This document shows, piece by piece, positions 8,602-27,053 of a stretch of DNA of 38,512 bases (the stretch's first letter is position 1; every line of letters begins with the position of its first letter). The notes below the pieces were generated by a model. It worked only from the letters and a program-made list of their open reading frames with translations. It was not told where the DNA came from and ran no database searches. This DNA comes from a virus, in IMG/VR virus record IMGVR_UViG_3300032268_001152, positions 1-38,512 of that record; one strand, given 5' to 3'. Position numbers and translations under genes: made by a program.

Positions 8602-9339
8602 GTGACACAGACAAAATTTGCAATAAGCATAGATGATATCACACCACACCCAAAGTCTTCTATTAGAGTACTTGACAGGTGTTTTGAGTTAATATCAGAG
8701 TTTCCTGATATTAAATTCAATTTATTTGTTCCAACTGCTTACTGGAGAACAATGCCATCTCCAATAGAAAGCATTTGTGAGCGACCATTAAATCTCTCAG
8801 AGTTTCCTGAATTTTGTGATTCTCTAAGAAGTCTTCCATTCAATAATTTTGAAATAGGACTACACGGTCACTTTCATGGAATTCCAGGTGTGTCTAACAA
8901 TGATGAGTTTAGATCAATTGGGTTTAAGGAGGCAGAAAATAAATTCAATCAAATGTTTGATGAAATTTATACAGCACGTCTCGACAATCACGTGAGGACG
9001 ATTTTTAGGCCGCCCGCATGGAGAATGTCTCCTGATGCAATAAATGCAGCATTTAGCTGCGGTATCAGTCTTTTAACACTTTCTCCAAAAGAGTACGCTC
9101 AGCAAACTTACTACAATGCACATAAGACTTCTGGAAAATTTACACTTTATGATGCAAATCCTCCATTTGATGAGCTATGTGAGAGTTTGTCAGACTCTAA
9201 GAAGTATGAAGTTGTTTATCATGCTTGTGAGTGGGACAAAAATTACCTAAGCAAGGATCTCACATTTCAGCTTAAGAATTGGATAAAGAAAAATTCTGAG
9301 AGACTGCAATTTTCATTTTTAAGTGGGATAGATCTATGA
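8602..9339 (+). CDS. Polysaccharide-deacetylase-like (NodB/DUF2334-type) protein
   Basis: A 245-residue protein with the order of motifs expected for metal-dependent carbohydrate deacetylases: SIDD with D11-D12 near the N-terminus, HGHFHG with H88-x3-H92 (zinc ligands), and FRPPAW at 135-140 (substrate groove). A late H in VVYHACEWD may be the catalytic histidine. Removal of N- or O-acetyl groups from a sugar is the likely reaction. The GTG start follows the previous stop by 2 bases, and its own stop overlaps the next ATG. It sits between an oxygenase and a glycosyltransferase in a tailoring block. No signal peptide is seen, so cytoplasmic action is expected. Confidence 0.68.
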   Translation: MTQTKFAISIDDITPHPKSSIRVLDRCFELISEFPDIKFNLFVPTAYWRTMPSPIESICERPLNLSEFPEFCDSLRSLPFNNFEIGLHGHFHGIPGVSNNDEFRSIGFKEAENKFNQMFDEIYTARLDNHVRTIFRPPAWRMSPDAINAAFSCGISLLTLSPKEYAQQTYYNAHKTSGKFTLYDANPPFDELCESLSDSKKYEVVYHACEWDKNYLSKDLTFQLKNWIKKNSERLQFSFLSGIDL

Positions 9340-13474: not shown

Positions 13475-14642
13475 ATTAGATAAGAAAATAGCAGTTTTTG
13501 CGGGCGATTTATTTTGGAGCAGTATTCCTTATGACTCTCTAAATGTCTATAGAGAAGTCTCTAGGCAATATAACTGCTCACTTGTCATGTTTGAAAACGA
13601 CTTAAGACTTACAAAAAACTTTTCTGGAAATGAAAAGTTTTATTTTGACAAGTCTTTGTTTGCATCTTGTAGTGGTTTAAGAACAGTAAGAAATTGGAAT
13701 GATTTTAAGATTCTAACAAATGATTACGATGCAATTCTGTCAGGTCCAAAACTCTTTCCAAAAACAAGAAGGCCAGGCATAACTTTAAATGATGTGAAAC
13801 CCAATTGGATTCTTTGGGACATAGGCGGTGCAGACATTCTCACTGACTGTTCATCAATTCGTCCTTATTCATCATTAGTGAAAGGTCCTGTGTGGAAGTC
13901 ATGGTGTGAGAGAATTTACCATGGATCTTCTGCACATGTCGTAGGATCAACACATTATGATTACTATTATGACACATTCTCAGGAGTTGGTAAGCCTATA
14001 AGTTGCAATGAGTTTTTTAAAAAATACGAATTAGATGTAAGCAAGTCAACGCTCTTAATTGCTCCATCAAACCCATCATCTCACACAAGTCAGCTTCTTG
14101 AAAACATGAAGAATATTGATAGATTGATTGACTTGTGTGAGAAGAATAGAATTCAAATTCTTCTAAAGACATATCCTCATGACTATGTTTATCATGAAAA
14201 AGATGGACAAGGCACAGGAGTCTATAAAAGACAGTCAGTTCACAATAGTGAAAAAACGCAGTTTCAGTTTTTTAATGAGATGTATAAGTCCATAAAGGTA
14301 ATTGAGAGTCAGGACCACTTTAGCGCAATAAAATACAGTGATTATTTGTTCAATATGTCTGGAAGCCATATTGCATGGGAAACTGCATTTTCTAAATGTA
14401 GAAGCTTTTCAATGAATTACTCAAGTCAAAAGTACTTTGGAGGTGTTCAGTACTTACCCCCATACATCAAATTTCCAGATGATATCGTAAATTCTGAGAT
14501 TCAAGAATTAGATTCTTTTATAAGTCTAAAGAATGATCAGAATTCATTGATTAAAGAAAAAATGTCACCATGGATTTCAAAGACGTTATTTGAGAATCAA
14601 GTCAATCATGCACTTGATAAAATTCTAAACAACACACTATAA
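13467..14642 (+). CDS. GT-B-like transferase, possibly CDP-glycerol/polysialyltransferase type
   Basis: A 391-residue protein of uncertain family. The N-terminal half contains AVFAGDLFWSSIPYDS and WILWDIGGADIL; the C-terminal half contains LLIAPSNPSSHT, then IQILLKTYPHDYVY, then IKYSDYLFNMSGSHIAWETA. The late S-D-x-x-x-x-x-S-G-S-x-x-x-E arrangement resembles the donor-binding end of CDP-glycerol glycerophosphotransferases and related capsule transferases. The H-x-Y-x-H residues around YPHDYVYHEKDG may be catalytic. It directly precedes the NeuB-like gene, which would fit a transferase using a CMP-activated sugar, but this is inference. No transmembrane helix is apparent. Confidence 0.48.
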   Translation: MSKLDKKIAVFAGDLFWSSIPYDSLNVYREVSRQYNCSLVMFENDLRLTKNFSGNEKFYFDKSLFASCSGLRTVRNWNDFKILTNDYDAILSGPKLFPKTRRPGITLNDVKPNWILWDIGGADILTDCSSIRPYSSLVKGPVWKSWCERIYHGSSAHVVGSTHYDYYYDTFSGVGKPISCNEFFKKYELDVSKSTLLIAPSNPSSHTSQLLENMKNIDRLIDLCEKNRIQILLKTYPHDYVYHEKDGQGTGVYKRQSVHNSEKTQFQFFNEMYKSIKVIESQDHFSAIKYSDYLFNMSGSHIAWETAFSKCRSFSMNYSSQKYFGGVQYLPPYIKFPDDIVNSEIQELDSFISLKNDQNSLIKEKMSPWISKTLFENQVNHALDKILNNTL

Positions 14643-14667: not shown

Positions 14668-15354
14668 GTGGTAGAGATTATATCTGAGATTGGAATTAAT
14701 CATAATGGTGACTTTCGTCTTATTGAAGAGCTAATAAGACAATCATCTGCAGGAGGATCTGATTTTGCTAAGTTTCAATTGTACTCTTCTGAAAGAGTTT
14801 TCGGAGATGATTCTAGAAAGAAGAATGAGTTTACCTTTGATCAGGTAAAGACAATTAAGCAAATTTGTGATGCTTATGATATAAATTTTTTTGCATCTGT
14901 TTTTGATGAAGAAAAACTAAATTGGTGTTGCGATCTTAATGTAAGTCACATTAAGATTGCGAGTAGAACTTTAAAAAAAGAACCTACGCTTTGCAAAGAG
15001 ATTATTCAGAAAAATTTAAAGACTTATATTTCTCTTGGAATGTGGGAGGATGAACTTCCATTTATTAATAAGAACGTTTTTTATTTCAACTGCATCTCTA
15101 AGTACCCAACAAGTATTTTAGATCTAAAGAATGTCAATTTTTTGCCATATCAAAATAATGTTGTCGGTTATAGTGATCATTCTTATGGAATTGCTAGCTG
15201 TCTGAACCAAATAGCAAAAGGTGCATCAATCATTGAAAAGCATTTTACTCTAAACAAAGGCATGGTTGGAAATGATCACGTAGGATCAATGACCTTAGAT
15301 GAACTTAAGATTCTAAGAGAATTAGGTGATCAGATATCTTTTCTTAATAGATAA
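14668..15354 (+). CDS. neuB: NeuB-like nonulosonate (sialic-acid family) synthase, SAF domain absent
   Basis: A 228-residue TIM-barrel protein with the NeuB signatures in order: EIGINHNGD at 7-15, AKFQ at 34-37, FFASVFD at 74-80, HIKIAS at 94-99, the Y-P-T triplet at 146-148, VGYSDHSYG at 166-174, IEKHFTL at 189-195 and NDHVGS at 202-207. NeuB enzymes condense phosphoenolpyruvate with an N-acetylated hexosamine to give a nine-carbon acid. Typical members are ~340-350 residues and carry a C-terminal SAF (antifreeze-like) domain, which is missing here: the gene stops soon after the barrel. The GTG at 14668 is the only start that keeps the first motif. The neuA gene lies two genes downstream. 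Confidence 0.8.
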   Translation: MVEIISEIGINHNGDFRLIEELIRQSSAGGSDFAKFQLYSSERVFGDDSRKKNEFTFDQVKTIKQICDAYDINFFASVFDEEKLNWCCDLNVSHIKIASRTLKKEPTLCKEIIQKNLKTYISLGMWEDELPFINKNVFYFNCISKYPTSILDLKNVNFLPYQNNVVGYSDHSYGIASCLNQIAKGASIIEKHFTLNKGMVGNDHVGSMTLDELKILRELGDQISFLNR

Positions 15355-16219: not shown

Positions 16220-16932
16220 CAAATAAAGTTTTGGCGATTATTCTTGCTCGTGGTGGATCAAAAGGCATTCCAAAAAAGAATATTAAGGAAATATGCGGTA
16301 AGCCACTTATTGCATACACTATAGAAGCTGCTCTATCGAGCGGTACTTTTGATAAAGTTGTGGTGAGCACAGACTCACATGAGATAGCATCAGTTGCAAA
16401 ATCTTTCGGTGCAACAGTTCCATTTATGAGACCTAATGAGCTGTCTCAGGATCATGTGTGGTCGCGTGATGCTTTACGTCATGCTGTTCTTGAGTGTGAA
16501 AAAGAATACGGAACATTATATGACTATGTTGTAGAATTGCCTTGTGTAGCACCTTTAAGAAATGACACTCACATAAGAGAAGCAGTAAACAAACTCATAC
16601 AGACAGGTGCTGATAGTGTTATTTCTGTTTGCAAAATGCAAGACAAGCATCCTGTTCGAATGAAGAGAATTGTTGAAGACACAATTCAAGATTTTTGTAA
16701 GGAATTTCCTGAAGGTGAAGGATCAAGAAGACAAGATCTTGATCCTTGTTATATAAGAAATGGTGCAATCTATGCAATGACAAGAAAATGCATAGTGGAT
16801 GACTTTTCTAGAAACGGAAGCGTTTCTAGACCTTATATTATGGATGAGATTCATTCTGTGAACATTGACTCAATGATAGATTATTATCTTGCTGAATCAA
16901 TTATAAGGTTAAAGAATGAAAGTAAGATTTGA
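16216..16932 (+). CDS. neuA: CMP-nonulosonate (N-acetylneuraminate-type) cytidylyltransferase
   Basis: A 238-residue nucleotidyltransferase close to the usual ~230 for NeuA-type enzymes. [16 protein letters not shown] at 8-23 is the CTP-binding loop. [15 protein letters not shown] at 48-62, MRPNELSQD at 71-79 and LPCVAPLR at 108-115 follow the family order, and IRNGAIYA lies in the sugar-binding half. It activates a nonulosonic or related acid as a CMP-sugar. With the NeuB-like enzyme nearby, CMP-activation of a sialic-acid-like sugar is the best reading, though CMP-Kdo-type or other acylneuraminate relatives cannot be excluded. The 3' end overlaps the next gene by 17 bases. Confidence 0.82.
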
Positions 16933-18509: not shown

Positions 18510-19394
18510 ATGTCTGTTAATAAGGTCAACATTGGTGTCGTCGGTAACGGTTTTGTTGGATCTGCTCTTGTTAGTGGATTTTCTCTTCATGTCGACGATA
18601 TTCTCATTTATGATAGAGATTCGAAGAGATCAACCCACAGTCTTGAACAAATTGTAAGAGACTGTAGTGTGATATTTGTCTCTGTTCCTACACCAATGTT
18701 TGAGTCAGGTGAGTGTGATCTATCGATTGTCTATAGTGCTGTGAGTGACTATCATTCTATAAGAAATTCTTTAGAACAATCAGAGCGAATATCAAATCAA
18801 GTAATTGTGATTAGATCAACAATAGTTCCAGGAACAATGGAAAAACTGTCAGAGAAGTATCCAGATGTAAAGTTTGTTTTTAATCCTGAGTTTCTAACTG
18901 AAAGAAGAGCACGTCTAGACTTTATAAATGCATCTCGAATTGTTCTGGGCGGAAATGATGAGGAAGCACTTAGCACTGTTGAAAGAATTTATAGAATAAG
19001 ATTTCCCTATATTCCAATTGTTAAGACAGACTTTTCAACTGCACAGCTAATCAAATACATGGCAAATTGTTTCTTTGCAACAAAGGTCTCATTTATGAAT
19101 GAGATGTATCAAGTCTGCATAGCTTCAGGAGGCGACTGGGATACTGCTGTTAAGGGACTTATGCTTGATGGTAGAATTGGAAATTCTCACATAGATGTTC
19201 CTGGTCACGATGGTGATTTTGGATTTGGCGGCAAGTGCTTTCCAAAGGATATCAATGCAATGATCAAGAGATGTGAAGAACTTGGTGTAGAACCTTCTGT
19301 GTTAAAAGGTGCTTGGAATAAAAATAAGCAAGTTCGAAAGAATCTTGACTGGTATGATATTCCCGGCGCTGTTACAAAGACAGAAAAAGATTGA
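18510..19394 (+). CDS. UDP-glucose/GDP-mannose 6-dehydrogenase family protein, C-terminal domain missing
   Basis: A 294-residue NAD-dependent dehydrogenase. GVVGNGFVGSAL at 9-20 is the cofactor loop, FVSVPTPM at 56-63, IRSTIVPGT at 101-109, FNPEFLTE at 124-131 (catalytic Glu), QLIKYMAN at 179-186 (catalytic Lys182) and GFGGKCFPKD at 238-247 (catalytic Cys243) are all intact. Usual members have ~390-450 residues and a third, UDP-binding C-terminal Rossmann domain; this protein ends about where that domain would begin. It should oxidise a nucleotide hexose to a uronic acid if it can still bind substrate. A short form acting as an oligomer, or with a partner, is possible. Two bases separate it from the previous stop. 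Confidence 0.78.
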   Translation: MSVNKVNIGVVGNGFVGSALVSGFSLHVDDILIYDRDSKRSTHSLEQIVRDCSVIFVSVPTPMFESGECDLSIVYSAVSDYHSIRNSLEQSERISNQVIVIRSTIVPGTMEKLSEKYPDVKFVFNPEFLTERRARLDFINASRIVLGGNDEEALSTVERIYRIRFPYIPIVKTDFSTAQLIKYMANCFFATKVSFMNEMYQVCIASGGDWDTAVKGLMLDGRIGNSHIDVPGHDGDFGFGGKCFPKDINAMIKRCEELGVEPSVLKGAWNKNKQVRKNLDWYDIPGAVTKTEKD

Positions 19395-19405
19395 AGGACT
19401 CAGGA

Positions 19406-20272
19406 ATGAAAAAAATACTTGTAACAGGTGGTCTAGGATTTGTTGGTTCACACTTGGTTGAACACCTTCTTGTGAATGTCAATGCAGAGATAACTGTAAT
19501 CGACAGTCTTGTGTCAGAAAGTTCCACCAAAGAAAATATGCGGCCAGGTGTAAGATACTGGATTGATGATATTTCAAATCTAAATTCATACAAGTATTCA
19601 GAAGAAAAGTTTGATACTATTTTTCACCTTGCTGCTCTTGCAAGAATCCAGCCAAGTTTTAAGGATCCTCTAAGCTATCTTTCAATTGATATGATGGGTA
19701 CTTCTCATGTTCTTGAGTTTGCTAGGATTAGAGGCTCAAATGTAGTTTATGCAGGAAGTAGCTCAGCATATGGAGGTCCAATGCTTAATCCGTATGCATT
19801 TGCAAAATATACAGGTGAGCAGGTGTGTGAGATGTATTCAAAAGTATATGGAATGAATACAGTCATAGCTAGATTCTTTAATGTGTATGGTGTAAGACAG
19901 CCAGTGTCAGGACCCTATGCGACAGTTGTTGGTATATTTGAAGATCAAAAGAAAAATGATCGACCTCTCACAGTTACAGGAGATGGTGAGCAGAGAAGAG
20001 ACTTCACTCACGTTTCAGATATTGCTGCAGGTCTTTTAGCACTTTCAAAGGGAGACCACACAGGAGATATCTACAATCTTGGCACGGGAAAGAATCTCTC
20101 TATTAATGAGCTTGCCAGACTTTTTAATCCATCTGAGATACAGTATTTACCACAGCGTCCAGGTGAGGCAAGAAATACTCTTGCTGACATTGTTGAGACT
20201 ACTTCAAAGCTAGGCTGGGTACCAAAAGTCAATATCGAGGATTACGTAAGTCAATTTCTTTTGTCAAAGTGA
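19406..20272 (+). CDS. NAD-dependent nucleotide-sugar epimerase/dehydratase (extended SDR)
   Basis: The start is set at ATG 19406, with AAGGA suitably upstream; a TTG at 19391 overlapping the previous stop is a possible alternative. The 288-residue product has ILVTGGLGFVGSHL at 4-17 (NAD binding), FHLAALA at 73-79, a SSSAYGG segment at 118-124 and the catalytic Y130-x3-K134 in PYAFAKYTGEQ. ARFFNVYGVRQ and RDFTHVSDIA match UDP-sugar epimerases. It is slightly shorter than the usual ~310-330. With the upstream dehydrogenase it could make or epimerise a UDP-uronic acid or act as a 4-epimerase. It is the last gene before the promoter at 20295. Confidence 0.8.
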   Translation: MKKILVTGGLGFVGSHLVEHLLVNVNAEITVIDSLVSESSTKENMRPGVRYWIDDISNLNSYKYSEEKFDTIFHLAALARIQPSFKDPLSYLSIDMMGTSHVLEFARIRGSNVVYAGSSSAYGGPMLNPYAFAKYTGEQVCEMYSKVYGMNTVIARFFNVYGVRQPVSGPYATVVGIFEDQKKNDRPLTVTGDGEQRRDFTHVSDIAAGLLALSKGDHTGDIYNLGTGKNLSINELARLFNPSEIQYLPQRPGEARNTLADIVETTSKLGWVPKVNIEDYVSQFLLSK

Positions 20273-20294: not shown

Positions 20295-20323
20295 TTGAAT
20301 ATTTTGTACCCTGATGTTATAAT
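20295..20323 (+). promoter_or_regulatory. Strong sigma70-like promoter with extended -10
   Basis: TTGAAT (20295-20300), a 17-bp spacer and a perfect TATAAT (20318-20323) form a near-consensus promoter. TG at 20315-20316 adds an extended -10 (TGTTATAAT). The expected transcription start, 6-8 bases after the -10, falls on or next to the A of the ATG at 20330, implying a leaderless or nearly leaderless mRNA for the nuclease gene. The -10 sits inside the inverted repeat at 20307-20330. Confidence 0.75.
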
Positions 20324-20330
20324 CAGGGTA
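20307..20330. repeat. Perfect 9-bp inverted repeat spanning the -10 and the start codon
   Basis: TACCCTGAT (20307-20315) and its exact reverse complement ATCAGGGTA (20322-20330) flank the six bases GTTATA. The right arm ends on the A of the nuclease start codon, and the whole element covers the -10 box. In DNA it could be an operator. In a transcript reading through from the glycan island it would fold into a hairpin hiding the start codon. It is not a normal terminator, as no T tract follows on either strand. Confidence 0.75.
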
Positions 20331-21187
20331 TGACATCTGAAACAGAAAATAAAATCTCTCTTCCTGTTCTACCAACTGGAAAGCCACACATCTCTTTCTC
20401 TGAGGTGAAGTGTTGGAAAGAATGTTCCTGGAGACATAAGCTCATTCACATTGAAAAGGTTGATGTGTTTGAGCCGTCTCCTTTTCTTCCATTTGGAACA
20501 GCTGTCCATGCTGGTTGTGAGTCTCTTCTTGAGACAAATTTGGTTGATAGAGAGACTCTAATTTCCAACTTCAAGAAAGAATGGGACAAGAGTAATTTTG
20601 ACGACCCTGCTTGGATTTCAAAGCAGCCTGGTTGGTATAAGCACGCTCCTTTTGAGACATGGGCCAAGTGGGCAAATGAGATGTGGAATGACGTGATTCC
20701 ATTTCTTGATAGCACTTTTCCAGGTTGGGAAATTTTCAAAGCAGAAGAAGATCTATATGAGGACATAGACGATCTTAATGTTAAGTTCAAGGGATTCATT
20801 GACGGTGTTATAAAGATTCCTAATAAGAAGGGAACAGGATATCAATACTGGATTATCGACTGGAAGACAGCGCAGTCTTACGGATGGAAACGGGAGAAGA
20901 AGCAGGACATCTTAATGACGTCTCAGCTTATTCTATACAAGCATTTTTGGGCTAAAAAGCACGGAATTCCACTGACAGACATCAGGTGCGGATTTATTCT
21001 TCTTAAGCGCGCTGCAAAGCCAGGTAAAATTTGTGAACTTGTTCCAGTTTCAGTAGGACCAAAGTCTATCGAAAAGGCAACAAAAATTGTCAAGAGTATG
21101 ATAAGTTCAGTTAGAAAAGGCTTCTATCTCAAGAATAGACACTCATGTGGATTTTGTCAGTTTAATAATACAGCACACTGTCCCTGA
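20330..21187 (+). CDS. PD-(D/E)XK nuclease, Cas4/RecB-like with four-cysteine Fe-S signature
   Basis: A 285-residue nuclease. HISFSEVKCWKECSWRHKL at 20-38 is the RecB-like N-terminal helix. H60 sits in PFGTAVHAG. D158 in GFIDGV and D177-x-K179 in WIIDWKTA are the metal-binding core, followed by Q199-x3-Y203 in SQLILYKH. Cysteines at 28/32 and at 273, 276 and 284 (CGFC then HC) match the Cas4/AddB 4Fe-4S layout. The family degrades or trims DNA ends; a phage recombination or host-DNA processing role is likely. ATG 20330 is forced: a stop at 20312 blocks upstream extension and no later start keeps the first motif. No ribosome-binding site precedes it; AGGG abuts the ATG. It is not a glycan gene. 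Confidence 0.8.
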   Translation: MTSETENKISLPVLPTGKPHISFSEVKCWKECSWRHKLIHIEKVDVFEPSPFLPFGTAVHAGCESLLETNLVDRETLISNFKKEWDKSNFDDPAWISKQPGWYKHAPFETWAKWANEMWNDVIPFLDSTFPGWEIFKAEEDLYEDIDDLNVKFKGFIDGVIKIPNKKGTGYQYWIIDWKTAQSYGWKREKKQDILMTSQLILYKHFWAKKHGIPLTDIRCGFILLKRAAKPGKICELVPVSVGPKSIEKATKIVKSMISSVRKGFYLKNRHSCGFCQFNNTAHCP

Positions 21188-23650: not shown

Positions 23651-23974
23651 ATGGACTGGAAGCTATCAATAATTATTTTACTGAGTTTAGGACTCGCTGT
23701 TTCAACCTATTATTTGGCAAAATTTTCACTTATTATTCTAAGGATTCAGGAAGCAATTGAAGAGTCTCTTGATGTAATTGATGAGAGATATCAGTCAATT
23801 AGCAAGATATTAGAGATACCGCTTTTTTATGATAGTCCTCAGATAAGACAAGTAATAAATGATATAAAAATAACTAGAGACACACTTCTGAAAGTTGCAA
23901 AACGTTTTGCAACTGTAGCAGTAGATGAAACAGACGACCAACAAGAGGACGTCTCTAATGACAAGAAAAATTAA
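23651..23974 (+). CDS. Small single-pass membrane protein of unknown function
   Basis: A 107-residue protein starting 1 base after the previous stop. Residues ~5-28 (SIIILLSLGLAVSTYYLAKF) form a clear hydrophobic helix. It is followed by a charged, helix-rich region likely to form a coiled coil (IQEAIEESLDVIDERYQSI) and an acidic, Gln/Asp-rich tail ending NDKKN. It overlaps the sigma-like gene by 17 bases. No family is recognised. A spanin or lysis role was considered, but no lipobox or proline-rich pattern supports it. Confidence 0.62.
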   Translation: MDWKLSIIILLSLGLAVSTYYLAKFSLIILRIQEAIEESLDVIDERYQSISKILEIPLFYDSPQIRQVINDIKITRDTLLKVAKRFATVAVDETDDQQEDVSNDKKN

Positions 23975-24695
23975 GAAGAGAATAAAGCGTAAGCCGGGAG
24001 AAGTGGGTTGTCTGTATTTCACAGAAAAAACTCAAGATGCAATTATCAAGTTTCAAAATGATAAATGTGAATCAAGTAAAAATTTAGTTTTCTTAGAACA
24101 GATACAGCCTGCTTTTGATTCCTTAGTAGAAAATTTGATACTTGTCTACGGATTTAAGTCTTCTCACGACTCATTTGATGATTTAAAGTCAGACTGCGTC
24201 TCATTTTTATATGAGTCACTCAATAAATGGTCACCAGAAAAAGGGACAAAAGCATTTTCGTATTACAATGTTGTCGCAAAAAACTGGCTAATCATAAGAT
24301 CAAGAAAACATCAAAAACAGAATAAGCGTCATATATCTTTAGATGCACCTGAGTCTCTCACGCAGGAACAACTCTATACTATTGAGACATATGATGTAAT
24401 GCCTGCGCCAGATGAAATTCTCATAAGTCAGAATATTAGAAATGACATAAGTGATCTTCTTACAGAGATTGAAAAGTCAGTTTCCAGTGAGACCGAAACT
24501 TCTTGTATAAAAGCAATTATAACTGTTTTTGAAAACATAGATGAGCTTGACTTTCTAAACAAGAGGGCGATCTTGATATATGTCAGAGATATATCTGGTC
24601 TCTCATCAAAGAGACTGTCAGTCGCGATGTCATCTATAAGAAAACACTATAAGCGTCTAACAAATGGAGACGAGAGATTTGATCTCTTGTTCTGA
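23958..24695 (+). CDS. Sigma-factor-like protein (T4 gp55 late-sigma type)
   Basis: The ATG at 23958 has AGAGGA about 8 bases upstream; an in-frame ATG at 23925 lies deeper in the previous gene. The 245-residue product has a very basic N-terminus (TRKIKKRIKRKPGEVG). Residues ~72-122 read FDDLKSDCVSFLYESLNKW, then SPEKGTKAFSYYNVVAKNWL, then IRSRKHQKQ, the layout of sigma region 2 (core-binding helix plus -10 recognition helix). The C-terminal half is helical, with DISGLSSKRLSVAMSSIRKHY perhaps a helix-turn-helix. T4 gp55 (185 residues) directs late transcription with gp33 and gp45. This protein is longer and may do the same. The flanking structural genes fit a late-gene regulator. Confidence 0.62.
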   Translation: MTRKIKKRIKRKPGEVGCLYFTEKTQDAIIKFQNDKCESSKNLVFLEQIQPAFDSLVENLILVYGFKSSHDSFDDLKSDCVSFLYESLNKWSPEKGTKAFSYYNVVAKNWLIIRSRKHQKQNKRHISLDAPESLTQEQLYTIETYDVMPAPDEILISQNIRNDISDLLTEIEKSVSSETETSCIKAIITVFENIDELDFLNKRAILIYVRDISGLSSKRLSVAMSSIRKHYKRLTNGDERFDLLF

Positions 24696-24697
24696 AA

Positions 24698-25069
24698 ATG
24701 TCAACTGAAAAATTAGAAAAGTCACTTGATAATTCCGATAAGCTCAAGAGAAAGATATCAGAGTTCTCTGATATCTTGGATGAACTGTCTTCTACAGAAG
24801 ACAAAAAGAAGCTTCTATGGAAAGAGATATATGAAAATGCTCTCACAGACCGTGAGAATGCTGGAATGCTATTTACAGATGCTTGGTCGAGAATGTCTGC
24901 GGGAACTGCAGAACACATCTCACTCGGACCAACTCTTACAAAGTACATGGAGCGAATGAGCAAGTCAAATGAGCAAATTCTTAGACTTGCTGAATTAATA
25001 AGCAAGATACAGGAGAATGACTCAAAGATAGATCCTGATGATGTTTTTGCATCAATAAGCGGAGAGTGA
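24698..25069 (+). CDS. Helical protein, possible small terminase subunit
   Basis: A 123-residue, highly charged, helical protein. The segment LTDRENAGMLFTDAWSRMSAG, then LGPTLTKYMERMSKSNEQIL, then RLAELISKI has the amphipathic helix and M-x-x-x-N-x-x-I-L pattern seen in the central coiled-coil domain of T4 gp16-type small terminases. No helix-turn-helix is obvious, and the T4 protein is longer (164). It starts 2 bases after the sigma-like gene and precedes the first baseplate gene. The large terminase is not in the window. Assignment is tentative. Confidence 0.4.
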   Translation: MSTEKLEKSLDNSDKLKRKISEFSDILDELSSTEDKKKLLWKEIYENALTDRENAGMLFTDAWSRMSAGTAEHISLGPTLTKYMERMSKSNEQILRLAELISKIQENDSKIDPDDVFASISGE

Positions 25070-26753: not shown

Positions 26754-27053
26754 ATGCCATTAGCAGTTTCTAAAATAGAGCTTCAACAGTCAATAACACA
26801 GGCTTTCCTAACAATTAATAACTCAGGCGCTGCAGATGGATCTGACCCAGAGTCAAACATTAGAGTATTAGCTGCAGCGCTCACTGATGCAATACATCAG
26901 TATATAACTTCTGCAAATGTTGATATCACACAAGTAATATCAACAGTTCCTCCTGGCACACCTGTTTCAACTGTAGGGAGTCCAGTTGCTCAATCAGGTG
27001 CGACAATAGCACCATCTGTTGCAACTCATGCAGGATTCGGACGTCTGATTTAG
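26754..27053 (+). CDS. Small baseplate-region protein of unknown function
   Basis: A 99-residue protein starting 3 bases after the gp5-like gene, with GGAG upstream. The first 55 residues are helical (SKIELQQSITQAFLTI, AALTDAIHQYI); the last 45 are Pro/Gly/Val/Thr-rich, ending THAGFGRLI. The size and position recall T4 gp5.4, but none of the His/Cys metal residues or PAAR motifs of that tip protein are present. Probably a minor virion protein, inferred from position alone. Confidence 0.55.
   Translation: MPLAVSKIELQQSITQAFLTINNSGAADGSDPESNIRVLAAALTDAIHQYITSANVDITQVISTVPPGTPVSTVGSPVAQSGATIAPSVATHAGFGRLI

Follow-up and report, generated by a model that had tools for sequence, protein, structure and literature searches.

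The start of a PD-(D/E)XK nuclease gene in a 38.5-kb virus record probably carries a cis-acting, transcript-dependent switch. It resembles the devices described at the T4 genes e, soc and I-TevI, here in a leaderless form. We analysed the whole record (hereafter the window) together with relatives drawn from IMG/VR, and computed the geometry of the start region, its recurrence, its fold, the specificity with which the hairpin arms pair and, in a second clade, a link to the orientation of the upstream gene.

A putative leaderless promoter at the nuclease gene

The nuclease matches the PDDEXK_1 profile over residues 20-280 (64.8 bits against a curated cut-off of 22), and its ATG lies 57 nt beyond the end of an epimerase gene (Table 1). 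GenBank phages searched for relatives of the window gave no DNA match and only proteins at most 32% identical. A search of solved structures with the nuclease sequence and two scans of bacterial genomes for a host link gave no match.

Table 1. Features at the start of the nuclease gene, in window positions
Feature	Position	Strand	Basis or remark
NAD-dependent (sugar) epimerase gene, upstream of the nuclease	19391..20272	+	Putative source of read-through RNA
-35 element TTGAAT	20295..20300	+	Sequence; promoter scan; similar register in relatives
Hairpin left arm	20304..20315	+	Perfect 20307-20315, G-U/A-U extension 20304-20306; in read-through RNA only
Extended -10 TGTTATAAT	20315..20323	+	TG 20315-20316, hexamer TATAAT 20318-20323; sequence, promoter scan, relatives
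Hairpin right arm	20322..20333	+	Includes the ATG; 20322-20330 perfect, 20331-20333 extension
Predicted transcription start, A of the ATG	20330	+	7 nt past the -10; relatives keep the gap at 6 nt
PD-(D/E)XK nuclease gene, 285 aa	20330..21187	+	PDDEXK_1 profile match; PHROG exonuclease families

Ahead of the gene, TTGAAT is followed by a 17-nt spacer, TATAAT, the 6 nt CAGGGT and the ATG (20330-20332). This agrees base for base with the near-consensus promoter, TTGAAT-17-TGTTATAAT, that had been described in a sequence-only reading of the same DNA. With 10 of 12 promoter matches plus the TG, it is the sole such site in a scan of 15-35 kb, and the window holds a single case of an exact TATAAT 5-7 nt ahead of an ATG. 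Transcription commonly begins some 7 nt past a -10, a position taken here by the A of the nuclease ATG. A search for a spaced Shine-Dalgarno (SD) sequence ahead of this ATG found none, as the same reading had held. The gene thus combines a -10 positioned for RNA that would begin at the start codon, an ATG and no SD, the arrangement expected of a leaderless gene.

Relatives point the same way. Among some 90 distinct IMG/VR nuclease relatives with readable upstream regions, we defined clade A as the 43 sequences closest to the window or to L005. In 14 of the 43, TATAAT stands exactly 6 nt ahead of the ATG; other members have a -10 farther upstream and an SD leader. The 6-nt arrangement appears also in L252 and in L253-L255, and SD matches are mostly poor among the leaderless loci. 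The earlier proposal that RNA from this promoter would be leaderless or nearly so is therefore well supported. A -35-like element (TTGAAT, TGTAAA or TTATAAA) recurs at near-constant register, in keeping with the sigma70-like character that had been suggested for the promoter. The promoter type suggests use of a host-type sigma and not a late sigma. The T4 late promoter TATAAATA is absent throughout the window, and a search of the window for a late sigma identified none. The protein encoded at 23925-24695 has a weak match to sigma-70 region 2 (Sigma70_r2, E 0.03). This match is below the cut-off and BLASTP gave no match to T4 gp55, so the protein is at most a tentative candidate for a late sigma factor.

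A predicted hairpin over the start codon

The -10 lies in a perfect 9-bp inverted repeat whose right arm ends on the A of the ATG, exactly as first described: TACCCTGAT (20307-20315) faces ATCAGGGTA (20322-20330) across the 6-nt loop GTTATA, so that the -10 straddles the loop and the right arm. Folding of the read-through RNA, which the sequence-only reading had proposed as a check, predicts a paired start region. With G-U allowed there are 12 pairs (20304-20315/20322-20333) at -16.5 kcal/mol (z -4.8), and 0 of 200 shuffles folded as well. Rfam gave no match at the site. The record holds no other copy of the palindrome with up to 3 mismatches allowed. Across all IMG/VR there are 32 stretches with the palindrome, by our own estimate roughly the chance level for 16 fixed bases. 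In an unrelated contig, IMGVR_UViG_3300036670_000258 (L102, L105), the palindrome ACCCTGAT-N6-ATCAGGGT occurs four times.

Perfect repeats are generally in excess in the window, where we counted 10 of at least 9 bp with short loops against about 1.5-2.3 in shuffles. The repeat as such is therefore unexceptional, and the comparative evidence bears the weight. The others lie at 1707-1734, 8690-8715, 13616-13642, 14934-14958, 16719-16748, 16808-16831, 23893-23914, 24752-24777 and 26919-26946. Most of the window's perfect repeats are within genes, and the contig of L002 has a similar excess (8 against 1.8).

Since the repeat alone is not exceptional, we asked more narrowly whether the 20 nt ahead of the -10 pair with the start region as the switch predicts, substituting native 20-mers or dinucleotide-shuffled spacers and scoring their pairing with the start. 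In the window, none of the random native 20-mers paired as well (p 0.0002). Dinucleotide-shuffled spacers gave p 0.01-0.03, and p 0.11 when just 12 nt were shuffled. The same spacer test gave p 0.008 for T4 gene e, and with native 20-mers it gave p 0.0004, 0.0056 and 0.034 for the three relatives L002, L003 and L066. Kinship among the sequences makes such p values look better than they are.

Predicted hairpins rebuilt in the nearest relatives

Only L002, L003 and L004/L066 were found in IMG/VR as members of the window's own group. Conservation of the arms by sequence was considered and rejected, as even relatives of 77-82% identity have different arms. In L002 (82% identity) UCUGUCGUGUC is paired with GACAUGACAGA and the AUG lies inside (z -4.45). 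In L003 (77%) GUGUCU/AGACAC and UGUCG/CGACA surround the AUG (z -2.8), and in L066 (70%) the pairing is UGCAUG/CAUGCA, with z only -0.8. The expectation that relatives would keep the paired arms thus held in part: their sequence is not conserved, but a hairpin masking the ATG is rebuilt with other pairings in the three nearest relatives. The proposed alignment for compensatory arm substitutions gave no signal in standard pair counts on clade B (below), and for this reason arm-swap tests were used instead.

In each of the window, L002, L003 and L066, the locus's own left arm beats those of the other three. In swaps across 65 loci, no foreign arm out of 64 equalled the own arm in the window, L002 or L003, and five did so in L066. 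The summed own-arm pairing of the four loci was reached by 0 of 1,000 permutations. Opening the AUG on the read-through RNA is predicted to cost 3.8, 9.9, 3.4 and 8.0 kcal/mol in the window, L002, L003 and L066, respectively, against 0.1-0.3 kcal/mol on RNA begun at the ATG. The cost in the window is modest because the AUG is the outermost part of the helix.

The pattern does not extend to the other eleven leaderless loci, which have no own-arm excess (523 of 2,000 permutations were as good), and about ten other leaderless relatives with same-strand neighbours have no clear hairpin. What is conserved near the window is the putative leaderless promoter. A rival explanation is that this promoter alone is functional and the read-through RNA silent simply for want of an SD. 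The hairpin would then be incidental, one of many perfect repeats and, for example, a product of template switching. Conservation of the leaderless geometry and not of the arms, the scarcity of hairpins among leaderless relatives and the excess of perfect repeats that the window shares with the contig of L002 all fit this account. Arguing against it, the masking hairpin was rebuilt with other pairings at the same site in the three nearest relatives, and clade B, described below, has a device that depends on gene context. We therefore consider an incidental hairpin unlikely, though the most probable of the rivals to the switch.

A predicted SD-burying hairpin in clade B and its link to the neighbouring gene

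The genes of clade B (about 47% identity) carry SD leaders. At most of its loci there is a long hairpin, of 12-17 bp in the best cases, in which the left arm is (A)GACCTCnCTTTY, TATAAT stands in the loop and the right arm, GAAAGnGAGGTC, buries the SD GAGG. In the arm swap, 0 of 2,000 permutations were as good. Standard pair counts on this clade found no covariation, because there is little variation in the SD arm and rows of the L144 type are offset by one base.

All of 20 rows have U-G at one pair of the clade-B helix, and U-G is frequent at others. Since such a pair is a mismatch in DNA, its invariance favours a role in RNA over a DNA operator. The operator explanation holds that a dimeric regulator, perhaps encoded by the phage, binds the palindrome over the -10 and represses the promoter. 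The near-perfect 24-bp dyad is indeed centred on the -10, a classical operator position. Counter to this, the record has no second copy, and the dyad sequence is lost in L002 and L003 with pairing retained. Taken with the G-U pairs, this makes an operator improbable. Slighter still is the chance that the hairpin splits the upstream and nuclease transcripts, either as a terminator or as a site of RNA processing, for instance by RNase III. Clade-B stems are long and stand right behind the upstream gene, as such a site would. However, no T run follows the stem, a terminator scan between the epimerase gene and the nuclease found no terminator-like site, and at most hairpin loci the right arm is the SD or the ATG itself.

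If the hairpin serves to silence read-through RNA, it is needed only where the upstream gene lies on the same strand (the DISCRIMINATING test). Where the neighbour is on the same strand, opening the SD-AUG region takes more than 6 kcal/mol extra at 17 of 22 loci; where it is on the opposite strand, this holds for 0 of 6. The p values (0.001 by Fisher, 0.003 by Mann-Whitney) are optimistic given that the loci are related. This comparison covered clade B and the outgroup and was chosen after the neighbour orientations had been seen; a 64-aa opposite-strand ORF at L095 was taken as spurious in the counts, and L092 is an exception. L135 and L136, which have opposite-strand neighbours, fall inside the hairpin-bearing group of the tree and have kept the SD arm without the long left one.

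Proposed mechanism

We infer promoter activity, the start site, leaderless translation and repression of the read-through RNA from these features. RNA reading through from the glycan array would hold both arms, and its start codon would be folded into the hairpin. With the start codon hidden and no SD present, the nuclease would not be made from this RNA. The folded AUG may also hinder restart by ribosomes that have just completed the epimerase, whose gene ends 57 nt upstream. The internal -35/extended -10 promoter, in turn, would start RNA at the A of the ATG or a few nucleotides from it. This RNA would lack the left arm and be translated as a leaderless message. Leaderless relatives that have no hairpin may depend on the missing SD alone, and the window's group would have both safeguards. 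Clade B has an SD, so the hairpin would be needed there.

The read-through switch of T4 type put forward in the sequence-only reading thus gains from the folding, the arm swaps, the recurrence, the clade-B orientation link and the precedent of T4 e; the leaderless relatives, most of which have no hairpin, weigh against it.

Other genes

Eleven related contigs were scanned for spacer pairing at starts that bear TATAAT. Pairing at p<0.01 was found at 12 of 195 non-nuclease TATAAT starts, where about 2 would be expected, and at 9 of 496 starts with control hexamers (Fisher p 0.005). RecA, DnaE-type polymerase and Mre11/SbcC-like genes are among these hits. This modest enrichment suggests that the device extends beyond the nuclease.

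Individual loci with TATAAT within an SD-burying hairpin include the starts of RecA (L196:11326, - strand), a zinc-finger nuclease-like protein (L192:16924, -), a DnaE-type polymerase with a PHP domain (L240:6801, +), an Mre11/SbcC-like protein (L249:9439, +) and a UV-endonuclease-like protein that was assigned by eye (L171:14609, -). A small gene (MSDSKIVKIGLGEA..DCDGDGIPD..) at L166:1440-1520 and L168:1435-1515, on the contigs of L154 and L156, has TATAAT inside a very long hairpin that buries both SD and ATG (-25 and -16 kcal/mol, respectively, with a 19-bp version in L166), and so is a second gene with this predicted device. Orthologues of about 400 aa at L180:9276 (-) and L214:16050 (-) have TATAAT 6 and 7 nt ahead of the ATG and are a possible second leaderless gene. 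Most other TATAAT-to-ATG gaps in these phages are longer.

Start-masking hairpins around a gene's own -10 might represent a general control layer in large marine phages, gained with same-strand read-through and lost where there is none. Such a layer would act not only at late genes but also at genes for nucleases, recombination and replication that have -35/-10 promoters, and in one lineage would have been combined with, or replaced by, leaderless starts. We offer this generalization tentatively, as plausible but somewhat short of likely. Hairpin strength set against upstream orientation would amount to a simple rule for insulating a gene within a busy transcription unit, and the orientation link also offers a way to search uncultured phages for genes of this kind.

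Comparison with known systems

The mechanism is established for the lysozyme gene e of T4, where the ribosome binding site is hidden by folding of long RNA from upstream and late promoters inside the start-region hairpin start RNA that lacks the left arm (PMC3014915). In T4 e, soc, I-TevI, I-TevII, I-TevIII and segB, and in Aeh1 mobE, a start-region hairpin silences long RNAs and promoters lie inside it; the T4 genes of this kind are termed late genes (PMC3014915, PMC2988022). The nuclease shares with T4 e a predicted read-through fold that hides the start region and a predicted promoter in the region of the left arm and loop, from which RNA started at the predicted site would lack the left arm. 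Unlike e, which has the late promoter TATAAATA, no -35 and an SD leader, the window's group has -35/-10 promoters and no leader. The SD is buried in the right arm in clade B, whereas in the window's group it is the ATG that is masked. The likeness to e and soc drawn in the sequence-only reading thus stands for the fold and the internal promoter, but not for the late promoter or the buried SD, neither of which the window has.

Homing endonuclease genes offer a second parallel: I-TevI, I-TevII, I-TevIII, segB and Aeh1 mobE are silent on early/middle read-through RNA (PMC2988022). As predicted here, these are nuclease genes silenced on read-through RNA and provided with an internal promoter. They differ in encoding homing endonucleases, in their mostly late promoters and in burying the SD; the window's gene encodes a PD-(D/E)XK exonuclease-like protein and has its ATG masked. 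A cellular parallel comes from Deinococcus-Thermus, where leaderless genes with a -10 adjoining the open reading frame and no ribosome binding site are common (PMC12340547). The -10 a few base pairs before the start codon and the absence of a ribosome binding site are shared with the window, but no hairpin covering the start is described for them. In the open-access literature we found no paper that joins a read-through hairpin to a leaderless start.

That the nuclease start would work like the e, soc and I-TevI device is well supported by computation, and its leaderless product, its -35/-10 promoter and its place at a DNA-metabolism gene would be new. The leaderless form would doubly restrict reading to promoter-born RNA, through a missing SD and a hidden start codon. 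The read-through hairpin had previously been described for few, mostly late, genes of T-even phages; distant marine phages now seem to follow the same logic, at a gene of DNA metabolism whose predicted promoter is of the -35/-10 type.
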